This document shows positions 28,211 through 31,636 of a DNA stretch of 64,000 bases, in pieces. A program made the translations under genes and the position numbers. Under the pieces are notes generated by a model that did no database searches, was not told the DNA's origin, and saw only the letters and a program-made list of their open reading frames with translations. Positions within the stretch are counted from its first letter, which is position 1, and each line of letters starts with the position of its first letter. The DNA is from Pseudomonadota bacterium (GTDB taxonomy: Bacteria; Pseudomonadota; Alphaproteobacteria; Rhizobiales; Beijerinckiaceae), in assembly GCA_021813805.1 (NCBI GenBank), contig JAKAJL010000012.1, positions 1 to 64,000 of the forward strand. The letters are read 5' to 3'.

Positions 28211-28790
28211 CGCGGCGCATTCCAGCCCTCTTCCCGTGCGGCGAAGGCGTGGTCGGGGACAATGAGCGTTTAACCCGAATCCAGACGCAGGGGCCGATCC
28301 TCGTGCGCAACCGGCTCGCCGCGTTGCCGCCGCTGTGACCTCGACCGGTTGCCCGGCAGCTGGCGGCGGAAACCCGCTTTCCCAACCCGCCCCTTCGCCG
28401 ATCGCGGCGTCTTGCCGCGGTCTGCCGCTCGCAGGCGACACCGACCTCCGGACGAATCCGGCCGCCGACGACCAACCGGCCTTCCGGCTGGTCGCCCGTC
28501 TACGGCTGCGCCATATCGTCTGGGGGCGCGGGTTGCCGGAGGCATGACGCCAGGCGGCCGGATCTAATCCAGTTTCTTAAAGAGGAAACGGGTCGAAGGC
28601 GCGCCCTGCCGCCGCGAGGCGGGCGTCGAGCAGGCCACTTTGCCGCGACATGGCGGCGCGTCATGGCGCCGCGAACTTGCCCGTCCAGCCAGGGAATCGA
28701 CGCTACGCTGGCGGGAAGCGAAGTTTCCCTGTTTCCGCTCTGAGTCTGGCCCGAAAGGCGCGGAATTGGCGCATTGACCGCGGTGGCGCG
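28211..28790. other. Long gene-free stretch upstream of the CS2-hydrolase-like gene
   Basis: No reading frame in these 580 bases has a ribosome binding site or a recognisable product. The stretch contains hairpin-forming inverted repeats. The clearest is CGACCAACCGG / CCGGCTGGTCG at 28469-28494 (one mismatch, 4-base loop). Another pair, GCAACCGG / CCGGTTGC, lies around 28308-28352. It ends at the sigma-54 promoter, so upstream activator sites are expected here. Confidence 0.5.
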
Positions 28791-28794
28791 CGGT

Positions 28795-28809
28795 TGGCAC
28801 GGCGCATGC
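28795..28809 (+). promoter_or_regulatory. Sigma-54 (-24/-12) promoter
   Basis: TGGCACGGCGCATGC matches the RpoN consensus TGGCACG-N4-TTGC in all positions except one T (ATGC for TTGC), with GG and GC at the exact required spacing. It lies 94 bases before the ATG of the CS2-hydrolase-like gene, predicting a transcript start near 28821. A sigma-54 activator gene is two genes downstream. Confidence 0.8.
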
Positions 28810-28902
28810 TGTTTCACTCGTCGTCCGGCGGCGGACCATCTGTCCGATGGCGGATCGCGCGAATCGACCGAAAGCGCGCGGAAACAACATGGAGGAAACG
28901 CG

Positions 28903-29556
28903 ATGTCCACTCTGAAAGAGCAGCTTGCCGCACGGGTCAAGGAATACGATCACTGGGCGACTAGGCGGCGTTACGGCGCCGACGGCCCCAACAACCGCAG
29001 GCTCTGGGTTCTCGCCTGCATGGATGAGCGCCTGCCGGTGGACGAAGCCCTCGGTATCCGCGTCGATTCGCCCGCGGGCGGCGGCGACGCCCATTGCTTC
29101 CGCAACGCGGGGGGAATTGTCACCGACGACGCCATCCGCTCGGCGATGCTGACCTGCAACTTTTTCGGGACCAAGGAGATCGTCATCGTCCAGCATACCC
29201 AGTGCGGCATGCTGTCGGCCAACGCCAACGACCTTGAAGCCGCCCTGCGCAAGCGCGGCGTGGACATCGACAGCCTGACCCTCGATCCTACCCTTCCCGA
29301 GTTGAGCCTTGCCAAAGGCGGCTTCGCGAAATGGATCGGCATGATGGACGACGTCGATCAAGCCTGTATGCGGACGGTGGAAACCTTCCGCAATCATCCG
29401 CTCATCCCCCGCGACGTCGTGGTCAGCGGATGGATCTGGGAGGTCGAGACCCGGCGTCTGCGGGCGCCCAGCCTCGACGCCTCCCGCACCGGCAGAACCG
29501 ACGTGACGTCCGCACAATTCGGCGTCAAGGAAGGCCAGCCTCCGCGTTGGTCGTAA
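28903..29556 (+). CDS. Beta-carbonic-anhydrase-fold hydrolase, carbon disulfide hydrolase-like
   Basis: 217 residues from ATG at 28903, with GGAGG 7 bases upstream. Zinc ligands of the beta-CA fold are Cys39, His98 and Cys101 (ACMDER, HTQCG), and the Asp41-Arg43 dyad is present. From memory, segments such as PNNRRLWVLACMDER, RNAGGIVTDDAIRSA, NFFGTKEIVIV and TFRNHPLIP resemble the archaeal CS2 hydrolase of Acidianus far more than ordinary carbonic anhydrases. That enzyme turns CS2 and COS into H2S and CO2. It has its own sigma-54 promoter and is followed by fmdB and a sigma-54 activator. An ordinary or COS-specific hydrolase remains possible. Confidence 0.8.
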   Translation: MSTLKEQLAARVKEYDHWATRRRYGADGPNNRRLWVLACMDERLPVDEALGIRVDSPAGGGDAHCFRNAGGIVTDDAIRSAMLTCNFFGTKEIVIVQHTQCGMLSANANDLEAALRKRGVDIDSLTLDPTLPELSLAKGGFAKWIGMMDDVDQACMRTVETFRNHPLIPRDVVVSGWIWEVETRRLRAPSLDASRTGRTDVTSAQFGVKEGQPPRWS

Positions 29557-29567
29557 AACTCCGCGCC

Positions 29568-29597
29568 GCCCCCGCCGGCGACTCCGCCGGCGGGGGC
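29568..29597 (+). other. Perfect 13-bp hairpin between the hydrolase and fmdB
   Basis: GCCCCCGCCGGCG / CGCCGGCGGGGGC with loop ACTC, 12 bases after the stop of the hydrolase gene. There is no T-tract, so it is more likely an mRNA-stabilising or attenuating hairpin that lowers expression of the downstream genes than a full terminator. Confidence 0.65.
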
Positions 29598-29641
29598 TCC
29601 GATCAAGACGAGGTCATCCGAAACCAGGCGGGGGAACGTCC

Positions 29642-29875
29642 ATGCCGACCTATGATTATTTTTGCCCCAGTTGCCGGCATTCCTTTGCCGCTCACCACAA
29701 AATGTCCGAACCGCGCCCTTCCTGCCCCCAATGCGGCGGCTTGGTCGAACGGGCTTTCCTCACGGCCCCGGCCATTCACGGCGGCGCCGCGCGCGGCCGC
29801 GAAGCCGCGATTCGCTCGCTCACCGCAACCGCGGCCGACAGTGGACACGGCCCCAAATGCCCCTGTTGCCATTGA
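29642..29875 (+). CDS. FmdB-family zinc ribbon protein
   Basis: 77 residues from ATG at 29642. The N-terminal zinc ribbon is MPTYDYFCPSC...CPQCG (Cys8, Cys11, Cys28, Cys31), which is the FmdB signature. A second Cys cluster, CPCCH, ends the protein. FmdB proteins were named from the formamidase gene cluster of Methylophilus and are often encoded next to amidases and similar hydrolases. The function is unsettled; a regulatory or metal-delivery role is proposed. Here it sits between the CS2-hydrolase-like gene and the sigma-54 activator, probably in one transcript. Confidence 0.85.
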   Translation: MPTYDYFCPSCRHSFAAHHKMSEPRPSCPQCGGLVERAFLTAPAIHGGAARGREAAIRSLTATAADSGHGPKCPCCH

Positions 29876-30031
29876 CGGAAGCATCCGCCCGCAGACGGCG
29901 GACGTCTTCTGCGGTCACCCAGTTGGATTCCCCGCCGCCGATCGCCTAATGTGGTGACGTGGCCGGCCGGAGACGGCGCTCCGCTCCGGCCGCGCCCGTT
30001 CTCCTTTCGCGACGATCGACGAGGTGAATTC

Positions 30032-31636
30032 ATGGCGCAGTTCCCTGCGAAGTCGCTCACGCCGATTTCGTTCCTGCAGTCGTTCATTTGCCAAAGCGCT
30101 CGAACGCTCGAACGCCAGGGCGGAAGCAGCGGCTTGGAGCGTTTCATCGAAGGGGTGGGGCTGGCCGCCAGCTTTTCCCTCGAAATGAACGCCCGTGACG
30201 ACTTGGGCTGCGCCGGCGCGATCACCCCCGACGCCTATGCCGAGATCATCATCGCCCTCAAGAATGAGATCGGCGGCCATTTCTCACGCGCTTCGGCCGA
30301 AGCAGGCGCGGTCCGGATCGTCAATCGCATCTGTCCGTTTGGCGACCACGTCAAGCAGGCGCCCGAATTGTGCCGGATGACGGCCAGCGTGTTCGGAGGC
30401 ATCGCGGCGCGCAATTTCGGCTATGCCAAGGTCGAATTGAAGCAGCGGATCGCGCTCGGGCACGAATGCTGCGAGGTTTGCGTCCATCTTGATCCGGCGA
30501 CGGTCGGCGACCGGCCCGGCGACGAATACCACCGCGAGGGCGACGAGATTGTCTCGCGCTCAGGATCGTCCGAAGCCCGGGCGCGCGTCGAGGCGCGGTT
30601 GCGACAGGTGTGGCGTCCGCCCGCCGCCGATCATACCGGCCGGACGCGGCCGCCGCCCGCCATCGTCGCCGAGTCGGCGAGCCTGCGCGCGGTTCTCGAG
30701 GTCATCGAAACCATTGCGCCGACTCCGGCGACCATCCTCATCACCGGGGAAACGGGTGTAGGCAAGGAGGTCGTCGCTCGATCCATCCACGCCATGAGCG
30801 AGCGGGCCGACCGCAACTTTCTCGCCATAAATTGCGGCGCGATTCCCGAATCCCTGATCGAAAGCACGCTGTTCGGCCACGAGAAGGGCGCATTCACCGG
30901 CGCCTTTACTGTCCACCAGGGCTTTTTCGAACGGGCCGACCGCGGGACGCTCCTGCTTGACGAAATCGACAGCCTGCCGGTCGCTGCGCAGTCCCGCCTG
31001 CTGCGTGTCCTTCAGGAGGGCGAGTTCGAGCGGGTCGGCGGGCGTCGGACATTGCGGACGGATGTGCGCATTATCGCCGCGTCGAACCAGGATTTGGAAG
31101 ACGCGGTGCGCCGAGGCCGGTTCCGCAGCGACCTTTATTATCGCTTGAAGGTCATCCCGATCCATATTCCGCCGCTGCGCGACCGTCCCGACGATCTTGG
31201 GCCGCTCGTGCGTCATTTCCTCGACCGACTGGCGCAAAAATACGGCGGCGTCGCCAAAACTCTGGACGAAGGGGTGTGGCGCCGCATTCGCAGTTATTCC
31301 TGGCCCGGCAATTTGCGGGAACTGGAAAACGTCATGGAGCGGGCGTTTCTGTTCAGCCGCGGTCCGATCATCGATCGCATCGACGTCGGAGCCGATCTCG
31401 TCCCGGATGCGAAATCGCCGTTGGCGACGGCGCCCTTGCGGTTGCTGCGCGATGACGCCGCCAGAGAGGCCGAAGGCAAAGCCATCGCCGATGCGCTGCG
31501 GCAAAGCGGCGGCAATGTCCGCGCCGCCGCCCGCCGGATGGGCGTTACGCCGCGCGCCCTGCACATGCGCCTGAAACGTCTGGGCATCGCCGCCGTCGCT
31601 TTTCGCGGCCATGGTTCGGGAAATCCGGCCGAATAA
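30032..31636 (+). CDS. Sigma-54-dependent transcriptional activator with cysteine-rich N-terminal sensor domain
   Basis: 534 residues from ATG at 30032 (GAGGTGAATTC upstream). Residues about 60-155 form a sensor domain resembling methanogen output domain 1, with CPFGDHVKQAPELCRMT and VFGGIAARNFGYAKVEL. Cysteines 101, 114, 146, 147 and 150 make a candidate metal or thiol site. The AAA+ domain follows: Walker A ITGETGVGKE near 238-246, GAFTGAF at 286-292 (sigma-54 contact), Walker B LLLDEIDSLP. The C-terminal Fis helix-turn-helix is near 490-525 (GNVRAAARRMGVTPRALHMRLKRL). There is no receiver domain, so it senses a ligand directly. It most likely drives the sigma-54 promoter at 28795. Confidence 0.9.
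   Translation: MAQFPAKSLTPISFLQSFICQSARTLERQGGSSGLERFIEGVGLAASFSLEMNARDDLGCAGAITPDAYAEIIIALKNEIGGHFSRASAEAGAVRIVNRICPFGDHVKQAPELCRMTASVFGGIAARNFGYAKVELKQRIALGHECCEVCVHLDPATVGDRPGDEYHREGDEIVSRSGSSEARARVEARLRQVWRPPAADHTGRTRPPPAIVAESASLRAVLEVIETIAPTPATILITGETGVGKEVVARSIHAMSERADRNFLAINCGAIPESLIESTLFGHEKGAFTGAFTVHQGFFERADRGTLLLDEIDSLPVAAQSRLLRVLQEGEFERVGGRRTLRTDVRIIAASNQDLEDAVRRGRFRSDLYYRLKVIPIHIPPLRDRPDDLGPLVRHFLDRLAQKYGGVAKTLDEGVWRRIRSYSWPGNLRELENVMERAFLFSRGPIIDRIDVGADLVPDAKSPLATAPLRLLRDDAAREAEGKAIADALRQSGGNVRAAARRMGVTPRALHMRLKRLGIAAVAFRGHGSGNPAE

Follow-up and report, generated by a model that had tools for sequence, protein, structure and literature searches.

The 64,000-nucleotide stretch analysed here (the window), from contig JAKAJL010000012.1 of an alphaproteobacterial genome of the family Beijerinckiaceae (assembly GCA_021813805.1, the host), carries a gene module that is most likely an inducible system for the hydrolysis of carbon disulfide (CS2) and probably also of carbonyl sulfide (COS). 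The module spans positions 28713–31636 and consists of three plus-strand genes preceded by a predicted sigma-54 promoter and a palindrome. The first gene (28903–29556) encodes P0003, a 217-residue enzyme of the CS2 hydrolase clade with a beta-carbonic-anhydrase fold; the second (29642–29875) encodes FmdB, a 77-residue zinc ribbon protein; and the third (30032–31636) encodes a 534-residue sigma-54 activator, whose ATG is accompanied by a Shine-Dalgarno-like GAGGTG and for which GTG at 29951 is an alternative start. The first-pass annotation of this DNA had described three plus-strand genes under a sigma-54 promoter, and all of them are present where it placed them, with the domains it named. 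Taken together, the regulatory layout appears to be a new variant built on a known kind of enzyme, with a well-supported anatomy and with a substrate and an inducer that we infer from sequence comparison.

The enzyme was assigned to Pro_CA in a search of Pfam and NCBIfam profiles. Its best relative in a phmmer search against solved structures was the Acidianus CS2 hydrolase (PDB 3ten, E 4.3e-50), with 89 of 179 aligned residues identical (about 50%), and the second-ranked structure was a putative carbonic anhydrase (E 5.3e-22). A tree of 45 sequences was built from 130 window columns, its references including five PDB rows, four of them partial chains, and one characterised CS2 hydrolase. It placed the enzyme in a bacterial clade of 32 sequences with an ultrafast bootstrap (UFBoot) of 100; the grouping of this clade with Acidianus and two haloarchaea also received a UFBoot of 100, and ten carbonic anhydrases and COS hydrolases (COSases) fell outside. 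For the comparison of loci, the best 80 of 188 relatives were taken together with a Methylobacter plasmid and the window, giving 82 loci that represent the closest, mutually related homologues. The zinc ligands C39, H98 and C101, the catalytic dyad D41/R43 and E42 are identical in all 82, and so is the presence of a Phe-Phe pair (F87-F88), at which all ten compared anhydrases and COSases read LL or QL. According to a Thioalkalivibrio survey, Phe-Phe is characteristic of CS2 hydrolase (PMC6382920). The signature of the enzyme is CMDER, and the ten outside sequences have CMDAR or CMDSR. Because the tree sets the anhydrases and COSases apart and both motifs differ, the place of the enzyme, as far as sequence defines it, is in the CS2 hydrolase clade, outside those of the carbonic anhydrases and COSases. 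The likeness to CS2 hydrolase suggested in the first-pass annotation is thus borne out by the top structural match, the bootstrap grouping and the Phe-Phe motif, and the phylogeny that it proposed leaves the enzyme outside the ordinary carbonic anhydrase clades.

The CS2 hydrolase of Acidianus A1-3 (3TEN/3TEO) shares with the window enzyme not only the clade, the zinc ligands, Phe-Phe and CMDER but also a DP-LP...W central insert; the module differs from it by the divergence noted above and by the addition of FmdB, an activator with a MetOD1 sensor and a sigma-54 promoter. The Acidithiobacillus thiooxidans CS2 hydrolase is the other closest known enzyme, and the comparison made here is with 3ten alone. 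CS2 hydrolase forms ring oligomers; the structure prediction for the window enzyme was poor, with a predicted local distance difference test score (pLDDT) of 61.

The fold of the enzyme also raises the question of whether it could be a carbonic anhydrase specialised in providing CO2 or bicarbonate to autotrophs, with an activator that senses a shortage of zinc or CO2, a reading that we consider quite unlikely. Many hosts of the module are autotrophs, the beta-carbonic-anhydrase fold and the catalytic Cys-Asp-Arg-His-Cys set are kept in 82 of 82 loci, and the ZIP transporter in the operon of three methanotroph loci, described below, adds a zinc theme. Set against this are the UFBoot 100 separation from the compared carbonic anhydrases, the Phe-Phe and CMDER motifs shared with CS2 hydrolase, the two other, stronger Pro_CA matches of the host (G000:C35 and C88) and neighbouring genes that fit a sulfide product. 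For CS2 hydrolases and COSase, negligible or no CO2 hydration is reported (PMC8209446).

The same paper lists CS2 hydrolase among the clade D COS-degrading enzymes (PMC8209446), which lends something to the idea that the module serves chiefly to hydrolyse COS, acting for example after the breakdown of thiocyanate or methylated sulfur, with CS2 incidental. Thiohalobacter thiocyanaticus, named for thiocyanate use, has the module enzyme as well. We nevertheless regard this idea as improbable: the COS hydrolase of Thiobacillus thioparus THI115 (3VQJ) has the clade D beta-carbonic-anhydrase fold in common with the window enzyme, but the latter does not group with it, lies in a separate clade and has Phe-Phe instead of Leu-Leu. 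Moreover, the host already has a separate COSase of the THI115 type (L003:1384–2034, G000:C69), which does group with 3VQJ and matches it with an E-value of 8.6e-112, and which lacks the promoter and palindrome of the module. A common regulon of the module and this COSase was considered and found no support.

The case for inducible CS2 hydrolysis rests, in addition, on the regulatory elements. The predicted sigma-54 (-24/-12) promoter, TGGCACGGCGCATGC, lies on the plus strand at 28795–28809, 108 nt before the ATG of the enzyme, and reads as TGGCAC-N5-ATGC with one mismatch. Such an element is not significant within the window alone (38 matches with at most two mismatches against 61 expected), and the promoter was therefore judged by its conservation across loci. 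In 76 of the 82 loci, the 400 bp preceding the enzyme contain a site with a score of 9 or more out of 11, against 9.2% of shuffles, and in 56 of the 82 the score reaches 10 or more, against 0.5%; the Pseudonocardia locus (L089) lacks a good promoter (score 7). The host genome has one RpoN match. Upstream of the promoter, dyad analysis of 35 dereplicated loci revealed a palindrome with the core GAA-N7-TTC, which in the window corresponds to GGGAAGCGAAGTTTCCC (28713–28729, no strand assigned) and is predicted to be an upstream activating sequence; its core in the window (28714–28728) begins 81 bp before the -24 element and scores 11. Of the 76 loci counted, which omit the six with a promoter score below 9 (L037, L051, L089, L090, L098 and L101), 72 have GAA-N7-TTC in the 260 bp preceding the promoter. 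The frequency was 10.1% in shuffles and 7.5% in 1313 stretches taken from other places, and other spacings of GAA and TTC, from 3 to 12, were found in 1–20 of the 76. The longer form KGAAGY-N3-RCTTCM was matched at 11 or 12 of its 12 positions in 48 of 76 loci and in less than 1% of both controls. A composite of palindrome and promoter, searched as one strict pattern, occurred once in the 3.67-Mb host genome, at the module, while the reversed control gave no hit. The palindrome is likely the binding site of the activator.

The activator combines MetOD1, Sigma54_activat and HTH_8 domains in the Pfam and NCBIfam search; its AAA+ domain carries the GAFTGA loop, a Fis-type helix-turn-helix is present and a receiver domain is absent by Pfam, as the first-pass annotation had anticipated. 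The same annotation called the protein cysteine-rich, which is loose for 8 cysteines in 534 residues, yet three of them in the sensor (C101, C114 and C147) are invariant in all 73 activators of at least 480 residues, three of the 76 being shorter and left out of this count. The sensor domain itself (30173–30481, plus strand, residues 48–150) matches MetOD1 (PF18546, E 6.2e-11), the only Pfam match in the N-terminal part, where neither V4R nor XylR_N was found. Its AlphaFold model (pLDDT 84) resembles TRAPP Bet3 subunits most closely, followed by the phenol sensors DmpR, MopR and PoxR, and H-NOX. In PMC5847659, MetOD1 is an output domain yet to be characterised, which is likened to V4R and HNOB and has three cysteines that also occur in the PoxR and MopR sensors. 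The fold matches, together with this likeness and the three cysteines, make a small-molecule or gas sensor the natural reading of the modelled domain. A search for relatives of the sensor in viral contigs confirmed none.

Two known systems come close to this activator. XylR, DmpR, MopR and PoxR have in common with it the sensor-AAA-Fis layout and three sensor cysteines, and the modelled sensor may have a fold of the V4R/H-NOX type, but the window sensor is MetOD1 by Pfam and its presumed target is the gene of a gas hydrolase, whereas DmpR and XylR control aromatic pathways. The MetOD1 domains of methanogen response regulators (PF18546) are matched over the cut-off, with three cysteines likewise, and differ in that the window domain stands at the N-terminus of a sigma-54 activator from a bacterium, as its sensor.

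It is conceivable, though on balance unlikely, that the activator senses some other signal, such as thiols, sulfide or a metal, and that the enzyme is part of a general response to sulfide or metal stress. A site formed by the three cysteines might hold a metal or be modified by sulfide, and FmdB and ZIP hint at zinc; in the host genome, however, the strict composite of palindrome and promoter is found only at the module operon, which favours a dedicated rather than a global regulator. Under the reading of a CS2 hydrolysis system, the three-cysteine site of MetOD1, probably holding zinc, would bind CS2, COS or a reaction product, and ligand binding would free the AAA+ domain. The activator, seated on GAA-N7-TTC about 80 bp upstream, would then open the sigma-54 holoenzyme at 28795, and the enzyme would hydrolyse CS2 via COS to H2S and CO2. 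The H2S would be oxidised by Sox in the host; in nitrifiers, its oxidation would involve sulfide:quinone oxidoreductase (SQR) and persulfide dioxygenase, with export of sulfite, while FmdB may supply zinc to the enzyme or the activator. FmdB matches Zn_ribbon_8/TIGR02605 (53 bits, cut-off 31.3) and has two CxxC motifs and a C-terminal HGPxCxC, conserved across the 78 extracted proteins.

That the layout is peculiar to one alphaproteobacterium, as the first-pass annotation implied, was not supported: the module occurs in many beta- and gammaproteobacteria, including ammonia oxidisers, methanotrophs and sulfur oxidisers. Copies 73–97% identical were found in Nitrosomonas, Nitrosospira, Nitrosovibrio, Methylomonas and Methylobacter, and also in Thiocapsa, Thiobacillus, Thiohalobacter, Sulfuricella and many metagenome-assembled genomes. 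The search for the same three-gene cluster that it had suggested was productive, with FmdB in 79 and the activator in 76 of the 82 loci (42 downstream, 30 divergent upstream, 3 upstream and codirectional, 1 other), and the sigma-54 control that it proposed agrees with this linkage, with the conserved promoter and with the single composite in the host genome. The identities of enzyme and activator correlate (r 0.705, 73 loci). At the same time, presence is sporadic. The 149 genomes sampled from the host's family, the host among them, include 16 with a match to the enzyme, and the 15 matches outside the host are only 32–38% identical; in a phylum sample of 398 genomes, the two matches at E 1e-30 are the host and one further genome (G246, 76% identical). 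Similarity between the window and a close relative (L026) extends over 12.4 kb, while the blastn match to another locus (L027) covers solely 28889–31609, the module itself. From the sporadic presence and the module-only homology we infer horizontal transfer of the module. Its base composition (65.4% GC, against 64.4% for the window) gives no sign of recent import.

The copy on the Methylobacter plasmid (L022) is 82% identical and is accompanied by FmdB, ZIP, the activator and a cupin. This arrangement recurs in two other methanotroph loci (L039 and L040), with a ZIP zinc transporter between FmdB and the activator (11116–11961 in L022) and, after the activator, a cupin protein with a signal-like start. 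An IscB gene (L022:5347–6876) and IS3 and IS1 transposase genes lie near the module on the same plasmid. A copy on a Mycobacterium paragordonae plasmid (L023:8001–8843) has an extra cysteine-containing C-terminal part, presumably a YHS-like domain, and neither an FmdB or zinc ribbon protein nor an activator is annotated alongside it, in an annotation that is itself incomplete.

Genes for sulfide disposal after the enzyme are what would be expected if its product were H2S. They lie codirectionally within 5 kb downstream in 13 of the 82 loci, ten of these 13 belonging to Nitrosomonas, Nitrosospira or Nitrosovibrio; ten of the 82 loci have at most 3 kb of sequence after the enzyme start. SQR and TauE are both present in 12 of the 13, and the last (L099) has a weak SQR match alone (25% identity). 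The SQR, which matches SQR structures with an E-value of 2e-92, begins with a sulfurtransferase domain, and a metallo-beta-lactamase protein matches 4ysk (E 2e-109), which we take to be a persulfide dioxygenase, and more weakly the ETHE1 persulfide dioxygenase (E 6e-15); TauE/SafE is the third of these genes. In L050, L057, L070, L088 and L095, the persulfide-dioxygenase-like gene, the SQR-sulfurtransferase and the TauE/SafE exporter run in one direction, 0–5 kb past the enzyme. DsrE-like genes lie upstream of the enzyme in seven loci. By their sequence assignments, the SQR, persulfide dioxygenase, TauE and DsrE neighbours are in keeping with sulfide as the product.

CS2, a gas that occurs in soil, is reportedly an inhibitor of ammonia monooxygenase (AMO), going by the title of a study by Hyman, Kim and Arp (1990). 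Profiles for AMO and particulate methane monooxygenase (pMMO) and for SoxZ were searched in the 50 genomes behind loci L026–L076, taken in rank order (L043, which shares the assembly of L036, was omitted). AMO/pMMO was found over the cut-off in 15 of these 50 and in 2 of the 398 genomes of the phylum sample (Fisher p 7e-14, ignoring relatedness), the two being G246, which carries the module, and G017, a member of the host's own family, which lacks it. For SoxZ, the numbers of genomes above the cut-off were 28 of 50 and 126 of 398 (p 7e-4). The host genome has no match to the AMO family (PF02461), which was found in other genomes by the same search, so protection of AMO/pMMO was rejected as the role in the host; since SoxZ was found twice and a COSase is present, sulfur use or detoxification appears the likelier role there. 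We put forward tentatively, as a plausible but not a probable extension, that CS2 or COS is sensed by the activator itself, at its MetOD1 cysteines, and that the activator thereby switches on an island for CS2 disposal that has spread horizontally. The island would defend the copper monooxygenase (AMO/pMMO), a target of CS2 inhibition, in ammonia oxidisers and methanotrophs and feed sulfide to Sox in sulfur oxidisers, including the host.

Several observations weigh against inducible CS2 hydrolysis as the role of the module. The literature searched gave no assay of members beyond those reported for the enzymes of Acidianus and Acidithiobacillus. The loci in which the palindrome was counted are those that revealed it, and they are related to one another, the site in the window is imperfect, and helical phasing was not significant (10 sites in 34 dereplicated loci; the best of eight periods gave p of about 0.04, uncorrected). 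An adjacent activator is absent from L065, L098 and L101, whose 2.6–2.8 kb of sequence after and 1.3–2.2 kb before the enzyme would have sufficed to reveal one; in the remaining activator-less loci (L037, L089 and L091), the sequence ends 0.4–1.7 kb after it. As matches to the sensor model, TRAPP subunits outrank DmpR, MopR and PoxR (E 2e-3 to 8e-3, TM score about 0.5). Sulfide genes are not adjacent in the window, belong mostly to nitrifier loci and are missing within 5 kb downstream in 69 of 82. Finally, the lack of this promoter and palindrome at the host COSase means that the two hydrolases do not form one regulon.

Between the enzyme and FmdB lies a GC-rich stem-loop (29568–29597, plus strand) with a 13-bp stem and no T-run; the folding z-score of this intergenic region is -2.0 in the window, with a median of -1.64 in 73 loci and values below -2 in 24 of them, too weak to claim a conserved RNA hairpin. 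By Pfam, the flanks are ordinary chromosome: upstream a PhoH-like protein and, further up, a DNA topoisomerase, and downstream, on the opposite strand, MoaC, indole-3-glycerol phosphate synthase and a glycosyl transferase family 3 protein, which we take to be TrpD.

Exact-term literature searches found no paper pairing carbon disulfide hydrolase with sigma-54 (RpoN was not used as a search word), carbonyl sulfide with sigma-54, or CS2 hydrolase with FmdB, and none joining Nitrosomonas, carbon disulfide and carbonic anhydrase; absence from print is claimed only within these searches, and a 2013 Acidithiobacillus paper may discuss further homologues. If nitrifiers and methanotrophs do possess an inducible CS2 hydrolase coupled to sulfide disposal, this could explain why they differ in how well they withstand sulfur gases and treatments that release CS2, and the link between the module and CS2 tolerance in these bacteria is testable. 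MetOD1 would moreover gain a function in sensing, and the activator, palindrome and promoter would make a small, testable gas biosensor. More broadly, the module would represent a biological sink for CS2 and COS beyond the few organisms known so far.

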